Source: an uncultured Lachnospiraceae bacterium
GTDB lineage: Bacteria; Bacillota; Clostridia; Lachnospirales; Lachnospiraceae
Length of the DNA stretch: 58,555 nucleotides
Direction of reading: 5' to 3'
Assembly (NCBI GenBank): GCA_946558465.1
Contig: CAMNTM010000019.1
Location: 1-58,555 of the forward strand
Made by a program: the position numbers and the translations under genes. Of the stretch, positions 11,317 to 22,398 are shown in pieces; within the stretch, counting starts at the first letter, position 1, and each line of letters begins with the position of its first letter. The notes under the pieces were generated by a model. That model worked only from the letters and a program-made list of their open reading frames with translations. It was not told the origin of the DNA and ran no database searches.

Positions 11317-12333
11317 CTATTGTCTTCCTATGCTGTCTCTTCCTGCAGGATATGCCGCCACATTACCTGCGCTGTCATAGAGAACACCCTTTATGCTGGA
11401 ATATTCTGGATTTCCTGGAGCTGCCTCAATATACATCAGATACGGCAGCGTATCAAAAGTTCCCGGCTCAATATATGTAATATTTTCCGGTATATAAACA
11501 TCTGTAATCAGATATGCCTGACTGTCAAAAGCTCCTCTTGCTATTCCAATGCAGCTCTCATGAGAAGGAAGAACAAGAAGTCCTCCAAATATTGCCTCTG
11601 CCTCTCCCGTACAGGCAGTAATATACCCGGAATCATTTGAAATAAATCCCGGAAACTCACTCCAGCCCGCATAAAGAGTCAAAGTTTCCCTATCCTCTGA
11701 CAAACCGCCAAAAGGAGTCAGTCCTTGTGCATCCTCATACCAGCCGGTGAACATCTTACCCAGTCTTTTGGGAGTGCCCAATATATCTATAGTAAAATCT
11801 GACACTCCGAAAGTATTGTCAATAATTTCCGGAAAACCGCCGTTTCCATATGCTGTAACCCTAATTTCTGCGGGTTTCGCATCTTCTGGATTTTCCACCT
11901 TCGGGGTTTCCGCTGTCAGATTATCCTTTTCACTGTCAGCATTCTTAAGTGAATACACCATCCCATTATTTCTATCCGCTCCCACATCCAAGTCTTTTCC
12001 TTCCTCTATGTCATCTGCAACCCATTCTGCATTCACAAACTTTGTGATCTCAAGCTCTGGATTGTACATGTTAATTCCGTATTTAAGAAAATCTGTCTCC
12101 CCTGCCAATTCCGAATACAAATTTGTACGATCTTCTAAAAATCTTTCTGTAAATATACGGCTTCGTGCACCTCCATCTTCTTCTGCCGCCAATTCATGAT
12201 ATTTCACACTTTGTCTGTTTACACATAGACAAAGTAAGATTACACCTGTCAGAACAACAAATACTCTGGATATACTTTTCCGTAAAGGATACCCGCCAGT
12301 AAATGTCAGCTCCAATCTTAAAATATCTTCCAT
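11317..12333 (-). CDS. membrane-anchored LRR (BspA-type) surface protein
   Basis: 338 residues. A single N-terminal membrane segment (about 22-40) acts as an uncleaved anchor. A charged linker follows, then an InlB B-repeat-like module (TIDILGTPKRLGKMFTGWYE...LTLYAGW, near 190-235) and an LRR_5/BspA-type repeat region near the end (GAFDSQAYLITDVYIPENI, GTFDTLPYLMYIEA, GNPEYSSIKGVLYD). These modules are typical of surface or adhesion proteins. The start codon is uncertain within about 20 residues. It stands alone between the ThrE operon and the grd terminator. Confidence 0.7.
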   Translation of the reverse strand: MEDILRLELTFTGGYPLRKSISRVFVVLTGVILLCLCVNRQSVKYHELAAEEDGGARSRIFTERFLEDRTNLYSELAGETDFLKYGINMYNPELEITKFVNAEWVADDIEEGKDLDVGADRNNGMVYSLKNADSEKDNLTAETPKVENPEDAKPAEIRVTAYGNGGFPEIIDNTFGVSDFTIDILGTPKRLGKMFTGWYEDAQGLTPFGGLSEDRETLTLYAGWSEFPGFISNDSGYITACTGEAEAIFGGLLVLPSHESCIGIARGAFDSQAYLITDVYIPENITYIEPGTFDTLPYLMYIEAAPGNPEYSSIKGVLYDSAGNVAAYPAGRDSIGRQ

Positions 12334-12451: not shown

Positions 12452-13606
12452 TTAACTTACATACCCAGCCTTCTTAAGCTCTTCCTCAGCCTTTGCAAGA
12501 TTTGCATCGGATACACGGACAATCGGGCCTGTACAGCCCATTCCGCTCTCAGCATAGATATTAATTTTCCACAGCGCCTTTACTGCATCCTCTAAGTCCA
12601 TGACTTCGATTCCCGCTATCTGCGCTGTTACAATTTCCTTCGGCGGTTCCTTGACTTCTTCTGCTGCTCCTGCCGGCTTCTGAGAAGCTTTAAGAGCATC
12701 TAAGATTTCATTAAATCCCGCCTTTTTCACTGCCGCAAACTCTTCCTTTGCAGTCTCAAATACTTTTCCTCTTACCAGCTGTCCGGCATAACGAATCGCA
12801 TTCGCAATTACTGGTGCACCGCTCGCTCTGGACACAATCATTACCAACTGCTCATAGCCTTCTCCGATTCCCGGACCATATCCATAGCCTGTTGCCTCAA
12901 AGCTTCCTCCGGTATTAAAGGAGGATAACATCTTAACCAGAATATTTCCTGTAAGGGAATCTGTCACCATAATGTCAGGAGAAGCCTGAAGCACATCATT
13001 TCCCCTCATTACACATCCGCCGTCTGCTCTTCCGGACTCCGCAAATGTAATATCATATCCCTTTTCCTGGAGCTGTTTCAGCGCCTTCTCTGTCTGCCGC
13101 GCACCGTCTACATTCAAAATACCTACTGTCGGCTTTTTGATTCCGCATGCCTTTGCAGTTATGATTCCGTACACTGCATTTTTAATCATTCCTTCAATAC
13201 GATCTGTACTTGAAGTTCCGGTTGTATTTGCAATGAACATCTCTTTCGCAGTTGCCGGAGTCACACAACGACCCACTGTAGAGACACCGATGGGGAACGG
13301 AAAATGCATGGTTACTGCCGCATCTACCTCTCCGTTTTTCAACATCTCCTCCATACGGTCATGGCCTTCCTCGTCATTTGCAACCTTGACAGTCGTAACT
13401 CCTTCTGCCTCTAATGTTCCGATGTAATATACATCAATTCCATCCTTAGCTGCCTCTACGGCCGCCTTCATGGAATTTTCCTCTCCATGCTCGCTGCCCA
13501 TACCTGTAAGAGCTACCTTTGGTCTCTTTCCAAAACTTCCTGTCTCAAGACCCTGAGCCATCTCCATAAAGGTATCGGCAATCATTCTTTCAATATTATT
13601 TGCCAT
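12452..13606 (-). CDS. grdD: glycine reductase complex component GrdD
   Basis: 384 residues, the normal GrdD length, with the PlsX/phosphotransacetylase-like fold (GMGSEHGEEN near the start, MHFPFPIGVS, CVTPATAKEMF, GYGYGPGIGEGYEQLVMIVSRASGAPV). Together with GrdC it forms protein C, which takes the carboxymethyl group bound to the GrdA selenol and releases acetyl phosphate by phosphorolysis. The ATG at 13606 is preferred over a GTG two codons earlier because AGGGGGA lies 8 nt upstream and the length then matches the family. It starts 14 bp after grdC and is the last gene of the operon. Confidence 0.94.
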   Translation of the reverse strand: MANNIERMIADTFMEMAQGLETGSFGKRPKVALTGMGSEHGEENSMKAAVEAAKDGIDVYYIGTLEAEGVTTVKVANDEEGHDRMEEMLKNGEVDAAVTMHFPFPIGVSTVGRCVTPATAKEMFIANTTGTSSTDRIEGMIKNAVYGIITAKACGIKKPTVGILNVDGARQTEKALKQLQEKGYDITFAESGRADGGCVMRGNDVLQASPDIMVTDSLTGNILVKMLSSFNTGGSFEATGYGYGPGIGEGYEQLVMIVSRASGAPVIANAIRYAGQLVRGKVFETAKEEFAAVKKAGFNEILDALKASQKPAGAAEEVKEPPKEIVTAQIAGIEVMDLEDAVKALWKINIYAESGMGCTGPIVRVSDANLAKAEEELKKAGYVS

Positions 13607-13620
13607 TGTCACCGTCCCCC

Positions 13621-15159
13621 TTACTCTGCCATCAGGGAAGCAGCAAAATCTTTCATAGCCTTTGCAATCAATTCTTTTACCTCTTCCTCAGATACACCTG
13701 CAGCTGCTTCTGCCTCTGCCTTCGTATTTGCCTGAATCACAAAGGATACACCGTCAAACAGGTTCGTCATACGTCCGAGGAATAAGCTTCCTTTTCCGAT
13801 AATCATTGCGTTCTTAATCTTTCCTGCAAGTATATCCTCTCTTGCAAAGCCAATATACGGTACACCAGAAGGAATATGCCCCTGGGTCGGTGCCCAGCCT
13901 GTAAGACCATGCTCTGCACTAAAGGAAGCCAGCTCTTTTCTGTCAAGTTCACCCTTCTTTACTGCCAGTGCTGCAATCATCTTATAATTCGCCATCGGTA
14001 CATCTCCTGCTCCTGCCGGCTTTGTGATATCCGGATTCTGCATCTCTGGTGAATATTTATCAATATCAGTAATCTTAAGCCCTGCTCTTTCAAGCGGATC
14101 AGCTACAAGACTTCCGATAACATTCTGCGGTGCACTTCCTGTTCCTACCGTATGACGTCCCAGAATGTCAAGGTTAATCTCCGGATTCACTCCGTCATTT
14201 TCAGAAAGAATTACACAAAAGCCTGCAAGACAATCCTCTAAAATAGGAAGTCCCTTCTTTACATGGTCCTTTCCGTTCATTCCAAGCTTTGCGGTACATC
14301 CTCCTGCCGTCACTGCCACACATTTGTAGGCGCCGGATTTAACTAGAGCTGCTGCCTCGATCAATGCATGAGACGGCCCCGCACAGAATCCACGGCTGTC
14401 GGAACCTGTAGCATTCTTCAGCCCGGCAATCTCTGCTGCTGCCTTTGCAAAGTTTCCGCCGCCTCTCTGGTTCATATCTCCGCATGCTTCCTCAGCACAG
14501 TCGATTACATATTCAACGTCATCCTTGCTGATCCCTGCATTTTGAATACCATAAAGAAGTGCAAGCACATTGGAAGCCTTGCTCATCAAATTTTCATGCA
14601 TAACATGTGCAGAAAGATTTACATCAATATCGTGTGCTCTCTTCACACAGCCTACCAGCTTCCCTGCCACATACAGTCCCTCTGCATGCTCTTCCTTTAC
14701 TGCTGCTTCGATTTCAGAAAGCTCTGTGCCTGCCTCCACTCTCGCAATAATGTCCTCTGTTATAATCGGATCTGCCGCAAGAGCCTCTTTATGTGCACAT
14801 ACAAAGTCTTTGTCAAGCTTTACTACCTCAAACTGATCACATGCCTGTACAAGGAGAATAAACTCTTCCTCTGGCATAATCTCGCCGTATTTTCCGTATC
14901 TTACTGCTCCTTCTTTTACCTTATCATAGTAGGGGAATTCTACCTGGGAAAGATCCTCTGGTGTTGCATTTCCAATATATACCTGATTCGGCCAGTAATT
15001 CACACACTCCTCATAGGAACGAAGATGACTTCCCAGCTCTTTTAAATACTCAGACTCTGGATTTACGATTCTTTCTGTCGTCTGAGTTGTTCCATTATAT
15101 ATCACCATCTGCGGTGTATGGGCCAGCACATAGCCGGCTCCCTTGATTACACTGTTCAT
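13621..15159 (-). CDS. grdC: glycine reductase complex component GrdC
   Basis: 512 residues, the standard GrdC size, with a thiolase/KASIII-like arrangement (RGFCAGPSHALIEAAALVKSG, VTAGGCTAKLGMNGKDH, GWAPTQGHIPSGVPY). With GrdD it makes protein C, converting the Se-carboxymethyl form of GrdA to acetyl phosphate. The start is set at the ATG at 15159 because the protein then begins MNSVIKGAGY as in relatives; a GTG five codons earlier overlaps the ribosome site. A strong hairpin terminator separates it from grdA, so grdCD expression depends on read-through or a separate start. Confidence 0.94.
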   Translation of the reverse strand: MNSVIKGAGYVLAHTPQMVIYNGTTQTTERIVNPESEYLKELGSHLRSYEECVNYWPNQVYIGNATPEDLSQVEFPYYDKVKEGAVRYGKYGEIMPEEEFILLVQACDQFEVVKLDKDFVCAHKEALAADPIITEDIIARVEAGTELSEIEAAVKEEHAEGLYVAGKLVGCVKRAHDIDVNLSAHVMHENLMSKASNVLALLYGIQNAGISKDDVEYVIDCAEEACGDMNQRGGGNFAKAAAEIAGLKNATGSDSRGFCAGPSHALIEAAALVKSGAYKCVAVTAGGCTAKLGMNGKDHVKKGLPILEDCLAGFCVILSENDGVNPEINLDILGRHTVGTGSAPQNVIGSLVADPLERAGLKITDIDKYSPEMQNPDITKPAGAGDVPMANYKMIAALAVKKGELDRKELASFSAEHGLTGWAPTQGHIPSGVPYIGFAREDILAGKIKNAMIIGKGSLFLGRMTNLFDGVSFVIQANTKAEAEAAAGVSEEEVKELIAKAMKDFAASLMAE

Positions 15160-15230
15160 TTCTTTATTTACCACCTTTCTTTGCTTCTTGTGAGGGCTTA
15201 TCAGCTCTGCCCCGAAGGGACTTGTACTAG

Positions 15231-15287: not shown

Positions 15288-15761
15288 CTACAAATATTTG
15301 CAGAATTCATCTCTGATAGAACTCATCTCGCTGATAATATCGTCAACATCAAGTACCATTTCCATCATACTTACCTGCTCGTCATAAACAGCATCATCGA
15401 ATTCATCCTTCATCTCTGGTTCACATACGTGATACGTCGTAAGTCCAAGCTGGACCCCTGTCAATGGACCTGCGAATGTCGGGTCGCCTGCTGTTACAGT
15501 CTCTGCTGCAAGACCTGCAGCTTCGCCTTCTGCCGCACCCAGGATAACTACTATGTTCTCCGGGCCGTACTCCTCAGCAAACTCCTTAACCCTTTTTTGA
15601 TTCTCTAAGTCCATTGCGCCTGCGCTCGTTCAGACGAAACATTCCGTTGATGAAAAGATTACCTCTGCACCGGCTGTCTGAACGCACTCTGCGATCGCCG
15701 GCCCCGGAATTCCATCACGGTCTCCGATAATTATTGCTTTTTTCCCTTCTAAAATAGCCAT
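15288..15761 (-). CDS. grdA: glycine reductase selenoprotein A (Sec-containing)
   Basis: 157 residues when the in-frame TGA at 15630-15632 is read as selenocysteine (residue 44). Protein A is the small shared selenoprotein of glycine/sarcosine/betaine reductases. Its selenol accepts the carboxymethyl group from protein B and is then recharged by thioredoxin. The N-terminus ([20 protein letters not shown]) and the redox motif ECFVU (CxxU, Cys41/Sec44) are diagnostic, and the frame continues smoothly into [23 protein letters not shown] precedes the ATG at 15761. A conventional gene call would keep only the 108-codon part from 15614, losing the active site. Confidence 0.96.
15630..15632 (-). other. 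selenocysteine codon (TGA) of grdA
   Basis: In-frame TGA at codon 44, in the context Glu-Cys-Phe-Val-Sec-Thr-Ser-Ala-Gly, exactly where GrdA proteins carry selenocysteine. The next nucleotides include GCGCAGGCGC, which may contribute to a bacterial SECIS hairpin, but I cannot fold it convincingly by eye. Confidence 0.93.
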
Positions 15762-15822
15762 AATTATGCTTTCTCCTTTCTTGTGTGGTAAAAACATTGT
15801 CTATGATTAAGAAGTAATATCC

Positions 15823-16149
15823 TTAGATATACTTCTGAATCATCGCTTCGATGCTCTCTGGCGTTGCTTCTTCCTTTACAACCTCTTCAATCTTCTCGCC
15901 ATCCTTATAGATTGCCATTACCGGAAGACCAAGAATCTTCTGGCCGATCGCAAGACGACGTGCCTTTGTTGTATTCAGCGACGTGAATTTCATCTTATCT
16001 CCGTAGGTCTCTGCAAACTCATGCACCTTCGGCATAAGCGCCTGACATGGTACACAGCCGTCACCATAAAAGTCTACAAATACATAACCCTCTGCCTCCA
16101 GAACCTCAGTCTGGAATGTGTTCTTATCTACATCTATCACGGGTATCAT
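15823..16149 (-). CDS. trxA: glycine-reductase-linked thioredoxin
   Basis: 108 residues with a thioredoxin fold. The active site is GCVPC (Cys32, Cys35) instead of WCGPC. This variant is known from thioredoxins of glycine-reducing Clostridia such as Eubacterium acidaminophilum. It passes electrons from TrxB to oxidised GrdA. It sits between trxB and grdA in the grd operon, which supports a dedicated role. The ribosome site AAGAGGAGG lies close before the ATG. Confidence 0.93.
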   Translation of the reverse strand: MIPVIDVDKNTFQTEVLEAEGYVFVDFYGDGCVPCQALMPKVHEFAETYGDKMKFTSLNTTKARRLAIGQKILGLPVMAIYKDGEKIEEVVKEEATPESIEAMIQKYI

Positions 16150-16237: not shown

Positions 16238-17182
16238 CTAGAAATAATCAGACATGCTTCTCTCTACCTGCACTGCCGCAATCGCTCCGTCTGCCGCCGC
16301 TGTCACAACCTGGCGCAGGCTCTTGATACGTACATCTCCTGCCGCATAAACACCGGGAATATTTGTATGCATATCTTCGTCTGTCTTGATATATCCACGC
16401 TCGTCCATGTCAATAATTCCCTCAAAGATCTTGGAATTCGGAATAGTTCCGATGAAGCCGAACAAACCAAACATACCGTCATCCTCATCTGCAACAACCT
16501 TAGTAATTTCTCCGGTCTTCACATTCTTTACCGTCATCTCGGAAAGAATCTCATCTCCGCCAAGCTCCTCTACTACGGTATCCCACATAAACTCAAGCTT
16601 CGGATTCTTAAATGCCTTCTCCTGAATAGATTTTGCTGCACGAAGCTCATTTCTTCTGTGAATCAGCGTTACCTTCCTTGCAAACTTGGTCAGATACATT
16701 GCTTCCTCAACAGCAGAATCTCCGCCGCCTACTACATACACCTCAAAGTCCTCAAAGAAGTTCGCATCACAGGTTGCACAGTAGGATACACCTTTACCCA
16801 TATACTCTGCCTCACCCTTACAGCCTATAGGTCTTGCATGAGCGCCTGTTGCGATAATCACATTCTTTCCCTGATACTCTGCCTTCGCGCTCTTAAGTAC
16901 CTTTACCTCACCATCAAGGGATACCTCGGTAATCGTATCGGATACACGCTCAGCACCAAACTTTGCTGCCTGCTCTGTCATTCTTGCAATCAAAGACGGG
17001 CCTGACTCGCCCTCTACTGTCTGTCCGGGATAGTTCTCAATCTCATCCGTGATTGCAATCTGTCCGCCGTCCTGTCCCTTTTCGATAATCAGAACTGACA
17101 GACGGCTTCTCCCTGCGTACAGTCCTGCCGCTAAACCGGCAGGACCTGCACCCAGGACAATTACGTCATAAATTTTGCTCAT
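16238..17182 (-). CDS. trxB: thioredoxin reductase
   Basis: 314 residues, the low-molecular-weight thioredoxin reductase type. It has an N-terminal FAD-binding GAGPAGLAAGLYAG (11-24), the redox-active CATC (Cys135, Cys138), a second Rossmann motif GGGDSAVEEAMYL for NADPH, and a C-terminal YAAGDVR FAD motif. It reduces the adjacent TrxA with NADPH, supplying electrons for glycine reduction. It lies third in the grd transcription unit, between grdB and trxA, and is preceded by a possible internal promoter. Confidence 0.95.
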   Translation of the reverse strand: MSKIYDVIVLGAGPAGLAAGLYAGRSRLSVLIIEKGQDGGQIAITDEIENYPGQTVEGESGPSLIARMTEQAAKFGAERVSDTITEVSLDGEVKVLKSAKAEYQGKNVIIATGAHARPIGCKGEAEYMGKGVSYCATCDANFFEDFEVYVVGGGDSAVEEAMYLTKFARKVTLIHRRNELRAAKSIQEKAFKNPKLEFMWDTVVEELGGDEILSEMTVKNVKTGEITKVVADEDDGMFGLFGFIGTIPNSKIFEGIIDMDERGYIKTDEDMHTNIPGVYAAGDVRIKSLRQVVTAAADGAIAAVQVERSMSDYF

Positions 17183-17308: not shown

Positions 17309-18619
17309 CTAGTCAAAGATTGTCTGTCCGTCAACCTCAGTTGTAAGAGCATCTAATGCCTTCTCAACAATCTTACGGCGGATCTCTTTCTCCTCATCCT
17401 TGTCTAACGCCGGATTTCCAAGCGGATGCGGAATTGCGATAGCCGGTACAATTCTGTTGGCACCAACTGTCATGGAAATAGGAGTTACTGTACAAATGTG
17501 TACAACCGGAATTCCTGCTCTCTCTACTTCTTTTACCATCGTTGCACCGCAACGAGTACAGGTACCTCATGTAGAGGTAAGGATTACTGCGTCAACACCG
17601 TCTGCTTTAAGCTTCTTTGAAAACTCCTCTGCAAAAGCCTTAGAAGATGCTACGGCTGTACCATTACCTGTTGTCGTATAGAACAGATGATGAAGCTCCC
17701 CGATCTTTCCTTCCTTCTCCATATCACGAAGCACGTCAACCGGAAGTACACGGTCAGAATCTTCATTTGCATAAACCGGATCATATCCGCCATGTGCGGT
17801 CTCATATGTCTCCTCTGTAAGATCCATAACGCCTGCAATATCATATTCACCATAATGAGAAGCGCTGGAGCTTTCGATGTGGTCCGGATTTCCTTTCGGT
17901 ACGATACCGCCGGAGGTAACAAGTGCAATCTTAGCATGCGCCAGGTCCTTAACTGCCGGATTCGGATCAACTCTGTCAAAATCAGGCATCGGGAACTCTG
18001 TCTCAAACGGCTTGTCTGCAAGCTTCTTAAGAAGCATCTTCACAGCTCTCTTGGAGCCTCTCTCCTTCTCAAAGAAGTTCACACGAACACCATTAGGCAT
18101 ATAGCCTTCTTCAGAAGATGCACCGATTGCCTCACCCTTGCCGAGCTTAACAGCCAGCGGAGCAAGCTTCTTAACCGCATCTCTCATACCTGCCGCATTG
18201 TTCTTTGTAGACACAATATAAACCTGAGTCTTGAACATATCAGCACCCGGATTCTCTACATACATACCTGTCACAGCCGGAATGCCGAGCTCTTCCTGAA
18301 CTGCTGCTGCGATTGTACCGCAGGCAACACCATAGCGTCCTGCATTAAACGCCGGACCTGCCACGAATACATCCGGAGCCTGCTCTTTTACCCATGCAAG
18401 AATATCTGCCTTCGCCTTCTCAAGATTCTCATTAAAATATGAATCTCCACATATAATTGTAGCAATGATCTCTGCTTCATCTTTAAAATTCTGTGTTAAT
18501 GCCATACCCGGTCCAACTACCTCGCCAACGCGGAGCTCTGCCGGATAATCTGCCTTTTCTTCTCCACCAATCTGTGCAAAGAACTGATTGATGTAATGAA
18601 CTACCTTTAATTTAGCCAT
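17309..18619 (-). CDS. grdB: glycine reductase protein B selenoprotein subunit
   Basis: 436 residues with TGA at 17567-17569 read as selenocysteine 351. GrdB is the substrate-specific selenoprotein that works with the pyruvoyl-containing GrdE subunits. Glycine bound by GrdE as a Schiff base is transferred as a carboxymethyl group via the GrdB selenol. The N-terminus (MAKLKVVHYINQFFAQIGGE) and the site STUGTCTRCG (UxxCxxC) are typical. Two separate frames at 17567-18619 and 17309-17539 are one gene interrupted only by the Sec codon. AGGGAGGATAAGAGC precedes ATG. It starts 17 bp after grdE. Confidence 0.96.
17540..17569 (-). promoter_or_regulatory. Sec codon and SECIS-like hairpin in grdB
   Basis: TGA at 17567-17569 is followed after 12 nt by a perfect 6-bp stem, CGTTGC and GCAACG, with loop GGT (17540-17554). 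A short stem with G and U in the apical loop about 12-25 nt after UGA matches what is known of bacterial SECIS elements recognised by SelB. The hairpin also encodes the RCGAT residues. Confidence 0.75.
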
Positions 18620-18636: not shown

Positions 18637-19917
18637 CTATCTTGCGCTCAATTTGTTGAAACCTGTTTCATTTGTTGCACCCGTAAGCACCTGAAGCTCA
18701 ACCTCAAGAGAACCATCCTCGCGAAGTGTCTCCTCGCTTGCTCCTGCAATCTTAGTTACATAATCCAGTGTTCCAATTACTTTATCGAGTTTCGGCAGGA
18801 TAATTACCTGATTTGCGTTGCCGCCTGTTACAACTGCATCTGCAGCCGGATCAGAATCTGCTAATGACTGAGATTTTCCATCGCGTCCTGCATACTCATC
18901 CGTGATGATAACAGTCTTAACACCCTCTGCCTCTATCTTCTTGCAGTTCATAATAAGGTCTGTATCTGGATTTCCAAAGCCTTCCTGAGATACGATAACG
19001 CCGTCAAGGTCTAACATCTTGCACAGCTTAGCCGTCCAGTCAGATGAACGCTGCTTATCAGCCAGATATACGTTTTCATTTGTAATAATCTGACATACAA
19101 AATTGATTGTCTTTCCATGCTGCTCAAACATATCATGAACAACCGGATTGTTAAGATGTACATAAGTCGGATTCTTATCACATGCAGATACACAGTTACC
19201 AGATACAATAGCACCATCCATAACCTCTGTAGGACTTAAAATGGTAGGTACGATCTTCTTTGCATCTACACCGTATACATAAGTGTCATGAAGAAGTCCT
19301 TGACTCTGAAGCATCTGTACATACGCGACTCTCGGAAGATCCGGATATTTCTCCATTCCTTCCTTAATTGTACATGTCTCATATACCTTTGTCTCGTCAG
19401 GTGTCAGCTCGCGTGCTAATTCCCCAAGATATACCGCAACCCTGAACCCTGCGAAACGTACAGCCTTCTCATAATCATGAGGCTTAATACCGTCAACCGG
19501 CTCACATACCATAACCAGGTTAAGTGTCTTAGAAAACGGTGTATAATCAGCTCCAGGACCTGTCATATCAATGATACCTTCCTGAAAACCTACAATCTTA
19601 CCAGCTGTAACAACAGCCATTCCCTTTAATGCATATGTCTTTCCTTCGCCGACAGTATCAACCTTAGCGATAACACCCGGAAAGATTCCGCCTCTTCCTT
19701 CCACCTTAACTCTCGGCTCGATAACATCTTTTACCGGCGTGATTCTTACAGACTCTCCCGGCTTTGCAATATCAAATGATACGCTTTTAATCTTCTCATC
19801 CTCAAGAGCAACAGCCTTTACTGCTTCCTCTGATACATAAAGGATACCGTCTTCAATCTTAGATTCAGCTGCAAACTGAATATCCTTAATGTAAATGTGA
19901 CCCATTTCTAATCTCAC
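18637..19917 (-). CDS. grdE: glycine reductase protein B proprotein (pyruvoyl)
   Basis: 426 residues, the full GrdE length. It is made as a proprotein cleaved at Asn-Cys to give two subunits, the cysteine becoming the pyruvoyl group that binds glycine. The site is visible as SGNCVSACDKN with Cys242, the same position known in Clostridium sticklandii. The start is a GTG at 19917, 9 nt after AAAGGAGG; an internal ATG four codons later is too far from that site. It lies between grdX and grdB. Confidence 0.95.
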   Translation of the reverse strand: MRLEMGHIYIKDIQFAAESKIEDGILYVSEEAVKAVALEDEKIKSVSFDIAKPGESVRITPVKDVIEPRVKVEGRGGIFPGVIAKVDTVGEGKTYALKGMAVVTAGKIVGFQEGIIDMTGPGADYTPFSKTLNLVMVCEPVDGIKPHDYEKAVRFAGFRVAVYLGELARELTPDETKVYETCTIKEGMEKYPDLPRVAYVQMLQSQGLLHDTYVYGVDAKKIVPTILSPTEVMDGAIVSGNCVSACDKNPTYVHLNNPVVHDMFEQHGKTINFVCQIITNENVYLADKQRSSDWTAKLCKMLDLDGVIVSQEGFGNPDTDLIMNCKKIEAEGVKTVIITDEYAGRDGKSQSLADSDPAADAVVTGGNANQVIILPKLDKVIGTLDYVTKIAGASEETLREDGSLEVELQVLTGATNETGFNKLSAR

Positions 19918-20019: not shown

Positions 20020-20403
20020 TTACCATGCATCTGCCGATGCAACCGCACTTTCTAAAAGAGTCCAGTCAATGATCTGAAAATCCTCATATACCTCCGGCTT
20101 ATACTTGTCCGATTTGAATACAAACTTTCGGCACGCTTGTATGGCATTTTCAATAATCATAAGCGACTCCTCGTCTACCGCCTCCCTCCGCTCGGTAATC
20201 ATTACCGATTTATAAGGTGTTTCATTCGGCTTAACACTTCCCGACAATGGATGAGATAAAAGCCGATGGCCTTCGTGTATTCTGTTTCTGACTTCTTTTA
20301 GTACATCCTCATAAGAAATATCCATATAAGCCACTGTGTATTCATCATTAAGCTTTCTAGGAACTAATGGATTATTTGTTATTATCATGTAGTTTTTCTT
20401 CAT
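20020..20403 (-). CDS. grdX: GrdX family protein
   Basis: 127 residues matching GrdX, the small protein encoded at the head of glycine reductase operons (MKKNYMIITNNPLV, then a GHRLLSHPLSGSVKPNETPYKSV core). Its role is not established. The first gene of this operon, it starts just after a 221-bp inverted-repeat element and the riboswitch terminator. Ribosome site AAAGGATGG lies about 8 nt before the ATG. Confidence 0.9.
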   Translation of the reverse strand: MKKNYMIITNNPLVPRKLNDEYTVAYMDISYEDVLKEVRNRIHEGHRLLSHPLSGSVKPNETPYKSVMITERREAVDEESLMIIENAIQACRKFVFKSDKYKPEVYEDFQIIDWTLLESAVASADAW

Positions 20404-20429: not shown

Positions 20430-20650
20430 TTGAACGCTGTCCCGGCGGACGCGATGAATGCCGTCTCGAAAGCAAAGCTTCCTCGATGCGCGGTGCGTTT
20501 ATATCGTCTTTCGGCGGACGCGGCGAATGCAATCTCGGAAGCTTTGCTTCCTCGATGTTCGTTGCACTCACATGGTCTCTCAGCAAGCCTTCGGTCTGCA
20601 AGCAGTCCGAAGGCTCTCTTTCGAGACCGCATTCGTCGCTATGCGTTCAA
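20430..20650. repeat. 221-bp inverted-repeat element with two 69-bp tandem repeats
   Basis: The ends are inverted: TTGAACGC at 20430-20437 and GCGTTCAA at 20643-20650, extending inward to GAATGCCGTCTCGAAAG on the left and its near-complement CTTTCGAGACCGCATTC on the right. Inside lie two tandem copies of a 69-bp unit (20443-20511 and 20512-20580), about 75% alike by my count, each with GCTTCCTCGATG and a small GAAGC/GCTTC hairpin. A further perfect GC hairpin (AGCCTTCGG/CCGAAGGCT) lies at 20586-20614. It resembles a MITE or other dispersed palindromic element lodged in the grd leader. Confidence 0.65.
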
Positions 20651-20693
20651 AAAGGACGATGCAAACAAAGAATTTGTTGTGTCATCGTCCTTT
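20646..20693 (-). terminator. riboswitch-linked terminator upstream of grdX
   Basis: AAAGGACGATG and CATCGTCCTTT form a perfect 11-bp stem around a loop of about 21 nt, followed on the minus strand by T residues (TTTTTG). It lies about 70 nt after the glycine aptamer and before the whole operon, as an expression platform should. Confidence 0.8.
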
Positions 20694-20763
20694 CTGTCTT
20701 TTGTCCTGATTGCTTTGTCTGAAAAGCTATAATCATTTCAACACAAGATTCAGAGTGCGGTCC

Positions 20764-20867
20764 TTTTCTTAGTCCTTTTGCCTGAAAGTTTCACCCGGCA
20801 TATGTTCACCTCATCTGTCCGGCTTGCCTCTTCGGCGGCTGTTTTTTACAGCTCTCTCTTAAGAAAA
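20764..20867 (-). promoter_or_regulatory. glycine riboswitch aptamer (single)
   Basis: The minus strand holds the glycine aptamer core: GAGAG, then GCCGCCGAAGAGGCAAG (20823-20839) and ACTTTCAGGCAAAAGGAC (20772-20789). GAGAG pairs with CTTTC. The outer P1 stem is visible as TTTTCTTA (20860-20867) with TAAGAAAA (20764-20771). Only one aptamer is present; the sequence after it lacks a second GCCGCCGAAGG. It lies directly downstream of a promoter and upstream of a terminator and grdX. Glycine riboswitches usually activate glycine cleavage genes or transporters; here it should switch on glycine reductase when glycine is abundant (inference). Confidence 0.92.
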
Positions 20868-20889
20868 ATCTTCCCGCTATTAACTTTCT

Positions 20890-20895
20890 ATTATA
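20890..20895 (-). promoter_or_regulatory. -10 box of the grd operon promoter
   Basis: A perfect TATAAT on the minus strand places the start of transcription near 20883, about 16 nt before the riboswitch P1 stem. The -35 region is weak (GCAATA-like, 18 bp upstream). Confidence 0.5.
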
Positions 20896-20961
20896 GATGC
20901 AACAAATGTAATTTATTGCCTGTTTCTATACTAACTTATCGTTAATTTTTTTTCAACCCTT

Positions 20962-20987
20962 TGACTAAATTTTATTTCATTTAGTCA
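20962..20987. promoter_or_regulatory. dyad TGACTAAAT-N8-ATTTAGTCA
   Basis: Perfect 9-bp inverted repeats separated by 8 bp, about 70 bp upstream of the grd -10 box and about 40 bp after the AGCS stop. No T-run follows on the minus strand, so it is more likely an operator than the AGCS terminator. The factor is unknown. Confidence 0.4.
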
Positions 20988-21027: not shown

Positions 21028-22398
21028 TTATTTTTCTTTCTTTTTGAAATTTTTAAAATAATCGTCATGTACCTTCTTAATCACTCCGCTCAAAGCAAAC
21101 AGAGCAAGAATATTCGGAATAACCATCAAGGAATTGAACGTATCCTGCATAGTCCATACAAGCTCTACCTCTGCAAGGGAACCGAGGAATACACATACCG
21201 CAACAATCACAGAATAAATCTTAACTGCCTTTGATCCAAACAGATACTTAATGTTCGCCTGGCCGAAGAAATACCAGCCCAGGATTGTAGAAAATGCGAA
21301 GAAGAACATACAAATCGCTATAAAAATATCTCCTCCCTTTCCATACAGCGTAGAGAACGCATACTGGCTTAATTCTGCTCCTGTTTTTCCTGTAGGAATA
21401 GAATGTGTCGTAATAATTACAAATGCAGTAAGGTTCAGAATAACGAATGTATCAATAAATACACCAATCATAGCTACAAATCCCTGTTCTACCGGATGAT
21501 TCACCTTAGCAACCGCATGTGCATGAGGAGTAGAACCCATACCGGCTTCATTGGAGAACAGTCCGCGGGCAACACCCTTTGTAAGGGCAAGCTTAATAGT
21601 TGCACCTGCAGCACCGCCGACAATCGCATCAGGCGCAAATGCACCTACAACGATTGCATGGAATGCATATGGAATCTCCTTAAAGTTGAAGATAATTACG
21701 ATCAAAGAGCCAACAATATAAAATGCTGCCATAATCGGAACGATCAGTTCTGTAATCTTCGCAATACGTCCTGTACCGCCCAGGAATACAAACAGAGCAA
21801 GCACTGCAAGGATAATACCCATAATCCACTGAGGCATTCCGAATGCAGTATTAAATGCTGCTGCAATTGAGTTAGACTGTACGGCATTTCCCATAAATCC
21901 AAGCGCTAATGTGATAAGCACGGCAAAAATCCCTGCCAGTACTTTTCCGAAGGTTCCGGAGAACGCCGCACGTATATAGTATACCGGACCTCCTGTCACC
22001 TCTCCGTCATCGCCCACCTTTTTATACTTCTGTGCCATAATTGCCTCGGCATAGATGGTTGCCATTCCAAGAAATGCTGCAATCCACATCCAGAAAATCG
22101 CTCCGGGACCGCCGATCGCAAGTGCCGTAGCAGCTCCGGCAATATTACCAGTACCTACCTGGGCTGCAATTGCCGTTGCCAGAGCCTGGAAGGAAGACAT
22201 GCCGTCTGCTCCCGCTTTATCGCCCTTCTTGAACATCCCGCCAAAGGTTCTTCTCATTCCTTCTCCAAAACCTTTTACCTGAATAAATCCGAGCTTTACT
22301 GTAAACCAGATGCCTCCGCCAAGAAGTGCCGCGATAAGAATGTAGTTTGACAGATAACTGCCTAATGTTGAGAAAATACTATTCAACATCGCTTCCAT
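21028..22398 (-). CDS. AGCS family sodium:alanine/glycine symporter
   Basis: 456 residues with about ten membrane helices. Family features include GTGNIAGAATALAIGGPGAI near 80-100, the GGAAGATIKLALTKGVARGLFSNEAGMGSTPHA signature region, and a WMQ-like VWTMQDTFN near the end. AGCS carriers import alanine or glycine with sodium. Because the next transcription unit is a glycine-sensing, glycine-reducing operon, glycine uptake is the likely job (inference). It has its own upstream promoter and no riboswitch of its own. Confidence 0.93.
   Translation of the reverse strand: MEAMLNSIFSTLGSYLSNYILIAALLGGGIWFTVKLGFIQVKGFGEGMRRTFGGMFKKGDKAGADGMSSFQALATAIAAQVGTGNIAGAATALAIGGPGAIFWMWIAAFLGMATIYAEAIMAQKYKKVGDDGEVTGGPVYYIRAAFSGTFGKVLAGIFAVLITLALGFMGNAVQSNSIAAAFNTAFGMPQWIMGIILAVLALFVFLGGTGRIAKITELIVPIMAAFYIVGSLIVIIFNFKEIPYAFHAIVVGAFAPDAIVGGAAGATIKLALTKGVARGLFSNEAGMGSTPHAHAVAKVNHPVEQGFVAMIGVFIDTFVILNLTAFVIITTHSIPTGKTGAELSQYAFSTLYGKGGDIFIAICMFFFAFSTILGWYFFGQANIKYLFGSKAVKIYSVIVAVCVFLGSLAEVELVWTMQDTFNSLMVIPNILALFALSGVIKKVHDDYFKNFKKKEK

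Follow-up and report, generated by a model that had tools for sequence, protein, structure and literature searches.

A single-aptamer glycine riboswitch leader with a 3' ghost before a glycine reductase operon in an uncultured Lachnospiraceae bacterium

The window, 58,555 nucleotides of contig sequence from an uncultured Lachnospiraceae bacterium, carries on its minus strand, in this order, an AGCS gene, a promoter, a glycine aptamer, a ghost aptamer, a terminator, an insert and the genes grdX, grdE, grdB, trxB, trxA, grdA, grdC and grdD. The gene order proposed in the first-pass annotation holds as it was stated, and the profile matches describe a complete glycine reductase operon. grdX (20020..20403) matches NF038093 at 136 bits (cut-off 40), while grdE (18637..19917), for component B of glycine reductase, is named from its place in the operon; its best NCBIfam match is sarcosine_GrdG, at 655 bits and under the 780 cut-off of that model. 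Profile and SECIS matches identify grdB (17309..18619), which has an in-frame UGA and a SECIS_4 element at 17566-17529. When the scores of the two GrdB halves are added, a summation of our own, the glycine model gives 541.6 + 135.5 bits (summed 677, cut-off 602.2) and the sarcosine model 662 (cut-off 800). trxB (16238..17182), trxA (15823..16149) and grdA (15288..15797, again with an in-frame UGA) follow from profile matches, and matches to NF040746/NF040747 cover grdC (13621..15174) and grdD (12452..13612). Neither NCBIfam (E 1e-10) nor Pfam (E 1e-5) yielded a match for a 338-aa open reading frame after grdD (11317-12333). The upstream neighbor (21028..22398, minus strand) encodes an AGCS family symporter (TIGR00835, 458 bits) and is not located behind the aptamer; among the best 80 of 401 loci, 75 of which hold at least 1.5 kb of upstream sequence, there are 39 in which an AGCS gene precedes the grd riboswitch on the same strand.

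Transcription of the leader appears to begin from a minus-strand promoter at 20928..20956, TTGAAA-17 nt-TAGTAT, which agrees with the consensus in 9 of 12 letters and is the same element in relatives; the transcript would be expected to start near 20921. The pattern TTG[AC]AA-17 nt-TAnnAT is found in 40 of 47 Lachnospiraceae-type leaders, and one of the misses (L162) has no upstream sequence. This conserved pair lies approximately 31 nt further upstream than the TATAAT box previously taken to be the promoter, whose letters are present at 20895-20890 and recur in TATAA-like form at the corresponding position of some of the 47 leaders; no promoter pair of the scan uses them, and given the conserved upstream element we dropped this assignment. 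The consensus scan itself returned three sites in the region versus a shuffled mean of 2.3. An inverted repeat, TGACTAAAT-N8-ATTTAGTCA, is situated just 5' of the -35 box at 20962-20987; its TGACTAAA is retained in all six genus leaders, the right half is less well kept, and it is possibly an operator. A hairpin of GCAAUAAAU and AUUUGUUGC is predicted near the transcript start (20899-20919), with similar hairpins in relatives. As a conserved 5' element (AGGCAAU/AUUGUCU) this hairpin was rejected: seven pairs form in 20 of 39 leaders, and the total of 215 compares with a shuffled mean of 211.4, 296 of 2000 shuffles being as high.

The aptamer occupies 20760..20871 of the minus strand, where RF00504 is matched over its full model (1-94, window positions 20871-20760) at 64.7 bits versus a gathering score of 32, with an E-value of 3.4e-11. 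With this significant covariance match and the operon genes matched downstream, the claim is borne out that a glycine aptamer stands in front of an operon for a selenoprotein glycine reductase. No second RF00504 match was detected within 20640-20930 with E-values up to 10 allowed, leaving one aptamer, and none at E <= 0.001 elsewhere in the 3.12-Mb assembly (98% complete). The P1 strands lie at 20868-20860 and 20771-20763, those of P2 at 20852-20848 and 20842-20838, and P3 also falls within the aptamer. When the 47 Lachnospiraceae-type leaders are aligned, core columns such as GAGAG, CCGAAG and CAGGCAAA are invariant or nearly so. Compared with shuffled sequences, the 276-nt leader folds with a z of -4.8 and the aptamer alone with a z of -2.1 (equaled or bettered by 5 of 200 shuffles).

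The same alignment, a comparison of grd leaders across Lachnospiraceae that had been suggested at the outset, reveals covariation in P0, P1, P2 and the ghost helices. P0, the leader-linker helix (20757..20877, minus strand), joins GCGG at 20877-20874 to CCGC at 20760-20757; 98.9% of its cells are paired and three of its four pairs show changes on both sides, as do six of nine pairs in P1 and all five in P2. For P0, P1, P2 and the ghost taken together, 94.7% of cells are paired versus 43-53% after a shift of the partner strand by one to three columns, and 186 cells are changed on both sides versus a shuffled mean of 55.5; further pair types above shuffling were not found in these helices (46 versus 43.7; 77/500). 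Compensatory changes have preserved P0, P2 and the aptamer core, from which we argue that ligand binding has been under selection. It is highly improbable that the aptamer is a chance match or a decayed relic without function, given its E-value, its conserved core and the covariation over 47 leaders. As far as sequence can settle, the leader of the window is a standard, well-preserved glycine riboswitch, which would be expected to bind glycine.

Between the aptamer and the terminator, at 20692..20755 (minus strand), linker pairing and alignment place a 3' ghost aptamer, answering the earlier call to check for a stabilizing helix of this type. The 3' letters that remain in the ghost from a former second aptamer read UCAGGACAAAAGACAG, and their counterpart in the aptamer itself is UCAGGCAAAAGGAC. 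Ghost P1 is formed by CUCUG (20755-20751) and CAGAA (20696-20692), with an outer C-A mismatch in the window; this outer pair is broken in 6 of the 47 leaders, the window included. In a wider set of 113 clostridial grd leaders, the linker motif YYCUG pairs at all five positions with CAGRR at the foot of the terminator in 93, whereas other 5-mers of the same leaders pair fully in 266 of 4651 cases (5.7%). Another 11 leaders, among them that of the window, form four of the five pairs, and the nine counted as misses comprise five without a called terminator, three without the motif, and G047. The covariants CUCUG/CAGAG (36), UUCUG/CAGAA (30), UUCUG/CAGGA (16) and CUCUG/CAGGG (8), together with UCCUG/CAGGG, support the pairing and hence a real helix. 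Within the 47 leaders the inner ghost pairs UCUU/AAGA are formed in at least 40, and changes on both sides are seen in 2 of 13 outer pairs and 2 of 5 inner hairpin pairs, there being little variation. By itself, the ghost region shows no folding advantage over its shuffles (z 0.75).

The strong terminator previously reported here is real. It spans 20648..20696 on the minus strand, as judged from fold and alignment, with a stem of up to 14 bp and a U run at 20653-20649, and the segment 20698-20646 folds at -24.8 kcal/mol, where shuffles average -7.3 (z -7.7) and none of 200 does as well. A consensus terminator scan restricted to loops of 3-8 nt missed it and listed one chance-level site on the opposite strand. 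Across the 47 leaders 91.6% of terminator cells are paired and the stem GGaCG/CGuCC is conserved; sliding by +3 still yields 80.4%, owing to the runs of A and U with which the arms finish. The terminal T run is five long in the window and at least six in 43 of the 47 leaders.

The leader does precede the operon, as had been claimed, but not directly: a repeat-rich insert of approximately 200 bp, with approximate ends at 20430..20645 (minus strand), intervenes between the terminator and grdX and is absent in five genus relatives. The insert holds an internal 69-bp direct repeat (75% identity), folds strongly (z -6.1) and has a GC content of 54.9% versus 43.7% for the window; GAACGC/GCGTTC occurs near its ends. 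We rejected the idea that it is a multicopy element of its own genome, in which one full copy is accompanied by two matches of 21-24 nt (E 0.3-0.6). With the two best candidates scored per genome, at least 7 of 298 other genomes of the family hold related pieces 26 to 121 nt long; one family genome (L116) has a related intergenic repeat as two tandem copies, and a 39-nt related piece is present in the genus relative G004. That the insert shortened the U run was also considered and dropped, as the insert-free locus L127 reads TTTTTTGAA where the window reads TTTTTGAA. L127 has a T run of six followed by GAA, and GAA also follows in the window; because the two differ by one base, we make no claim that the insert damaged the terminator. 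A separate insertion is found at the same place in L134 (1330-2190 of that locus), where it contains a 151-aa open reading frame (1503-1958) whose product presumably resembles an IS200/IS605-type transposase.

The YYCUG-CAGRR pairing at the terminator foot corresponds to the classical ON arrangement, and the aptamer, P0, the ghost, the terminator and their overlap are all evident at the level of sequence. We consider it probable that the leader is a type-1 singlet ON glycine riboswitch acting on an intrinsic terminator, with one aptamer, P0 and a degenerate 3' ghost. In such a switch, glycine binding would dock the aptamer on the ghost and stabilize ghost P1; the 3' strand of that helix, CAGAA, also serves as the terminator foot, with the result that docking would weaken termination, and plentiful glycine would switch on grdX-E-B-trxB-trxA-A-C-D.

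How tightly the two elements may be coupled was assessed from predicted energies. Blocking CAGAA costs the terminator of the window 3.3 of 21.4 kcal/mol, and the core that is left still has its U run. For 51 Lachnospiraceae-type leaders, blocking CAGRR removes on average 15% of the terminator energy (range 0.4 to 11.1 kcal), and for 51 other clostridial leaders 44% (0.6 to 11.6), two ranges that overlap; in G356, unlike the window, the ghost P1 strand CAGGG belongs to the core terminator and 10.7 of 17.5 kcal/mol are lost. The best fold of the transcript to 20649 contains the aptamer, P0, ghost P1 and the core terminator together, with the full-terminator state 0.5 kcal/mol above it; when the RNA is extended by three bases at its 3' end, the best fold contains the full terminator and ghost P1 is displaced. 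The full terminator and ghost P1 are therefore predicted to compete at the foot, and the core terminator survives with or without ghost P1 in the predicted folds. Because ghost P1 overlaps the terminator weakly in the Lachnospiraceae-type clade, gating of the operon by its ligand is something we infer, and regard as plausible. The ON direction would follow mainly from homology and the C. difficile observation rather than from the energetics of the window, and we likewise infer the size of any effect of glycine on the terminator.

The weak overlap, the predicted coexistence of ghost P1 with the core terminator, and the large structured insert 3' of the terminator, found in the species of the window only among six genus members, would also be consistent with a leader that binds glycine while ghost P1 stacks on the core terminator, leaving expression largely constitutive or set elsewhere, in the clade or in this species. 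We consider this unlikely, as compensatory changes maintain P0, P2 and the aptamer core, the energies of the two states differ by no more than 0.5 kcal/mol, and in the longer fold the full terminator displaces ghost P1. More tentatively, the usual strong exclusion between the P1 of the second domain and the terminator may have been replaced in Lachnospiraceae-type grd leaders, such that the ghost, largely conserved in sequence, abuts a conserved terminator and glycine alters the stack or another pairing instead of driving simple competition between strands; this is a possibility we entertain with some doubt.

The switch could also run in the opposite direction, with aptamer pairing disarming the terminator in the absence of glycine, and glycine locking the aptamer so that the terminator forms. 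Two pairings could serve such an OFF switch: the core AAAAGGAC with the 3' arm of the terminator, or the 5' strand of P2 with its 5' arm. The first is complete (8 of 8) in 34 of the 47 leaders, the window included, and is present in 39 by a looser helix count; it is absent in 13. The terminator hairpin itself is local and stronger. The second, through GCUAUC(G), is found in five genus relatives, where its formation is predicted for transcripts that stop short of the 3' arm (probability ~0.5 in G004 and at least 0.8 in the other four). The window lacks this P2 pairing, and any such 6-bp match occurs in 13 of 47 leaders, with differing letters; as an antiterminator predicted in five relatives and lost in the window, it was set aside. 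A catabolic operon shut by glycine would moreover oppose the rise in grd transcription reported for C. difficile (PMC11477304). Taken together, an OFF switch appears quite improbable.

The leader is shared, from promoter to terminator, by the five genus relatives, and such leaders are common beyond them. In the clostridial genomes sampled, a glycine aptamer lies upstream of grdX on the same strand at 44 of 74 GrdX places (repeats removed; 71 exceed the GrdX cut-off), with one of the 44, G227, counted by hand. Two matches at E <= 0.1 were found at 26 of these places, the weaker scoring as low as 24 bits, and one at 18; the one-match leaders G383 and G392 show a degenerate second aptamer, and that of G419 is cut by a contig end. 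Of the best 80 of 401 loci, 78 carry an aptamer that reaches the threshold, the exceptions being L176 and L204; this proportion is biased upward because the query was built from aptamer-bearing loci. The 30 of 74 GrdX places with no aptamer upstream count against the type-1 reading; their operon membership was checked only in the source genome. There, the RF00504 search found no glycine aptamer at a second grdX (G000:C1:269200-272200; L098, L054) or at a third, weak GrdX match. The second grdX has two neighbors, a TetR-type gene and a gene for a reductase component B whose best model is sarcosine_GrdG, and an aptamer-less grdX beside a TetR-type gene counts in favor of the type-1 ON reading.

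The grd context, which the first-pass annotation contrasted with the better-known glycine cleavage genes, is already known from another clostridium, C. difficile (PMC11477304, PMC10880999), and with 44 of 74 GrdX places bearing an aptamer a view of it as unusual is not supported. Since aptamers ahead of grdX are frequent among the sampled clostridia, glycine sensing at the RNA level looks to be a usual means of controlling glycine fermentation. Within the literature collection searched, no paper joined the glycine riboswitch with Lachnospiraceae. The results suggest that a published trend, the retention of aptamer 1 and degradation of aptamer 2 in front of catabolic operons, holds for glycine reductase as it does for glycine cleavage. 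The weak coupling of the expression platform in Lachnospiraceae-type leaders presents a small, testable puzzle: the degree to which the terminator of this clade is under the control of the ghost.

Three known systems frame this reading. The C. difficile grd riboswitch (CD2357-48), like that of the window, is a glycine riboswitch before a grd operon and is thought to be ON: PMC11477304 places the operon among glycine riboswitch targets, describes glycine as raising grd transcription and infers an ON switch, and PMC10880999 mentions the riboswitch together with glycine induction. The type-1 singlets defined, alongside type-2, by Crum et al. 2019 (PMC6944388) resemble the window in having a single aptamer and a 3' ghost before a glycine catabolic operon; they differ in that 93% of them precede and regulate GCV, and the main text of that paper does not use the terms grd or reductase. 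The tandem riboswitch of B. subtilis gcvT, an ON switch, shares with the window a P0 helix and a second aptamer adjoining the terminator, and according to PMC5666159 a P0 mutation abolished its regulation and a mutation at the terminator foot made expression constitutive; it differs in having two intact aptamers and in preceding glycine cleavage genes (PMC5666159).
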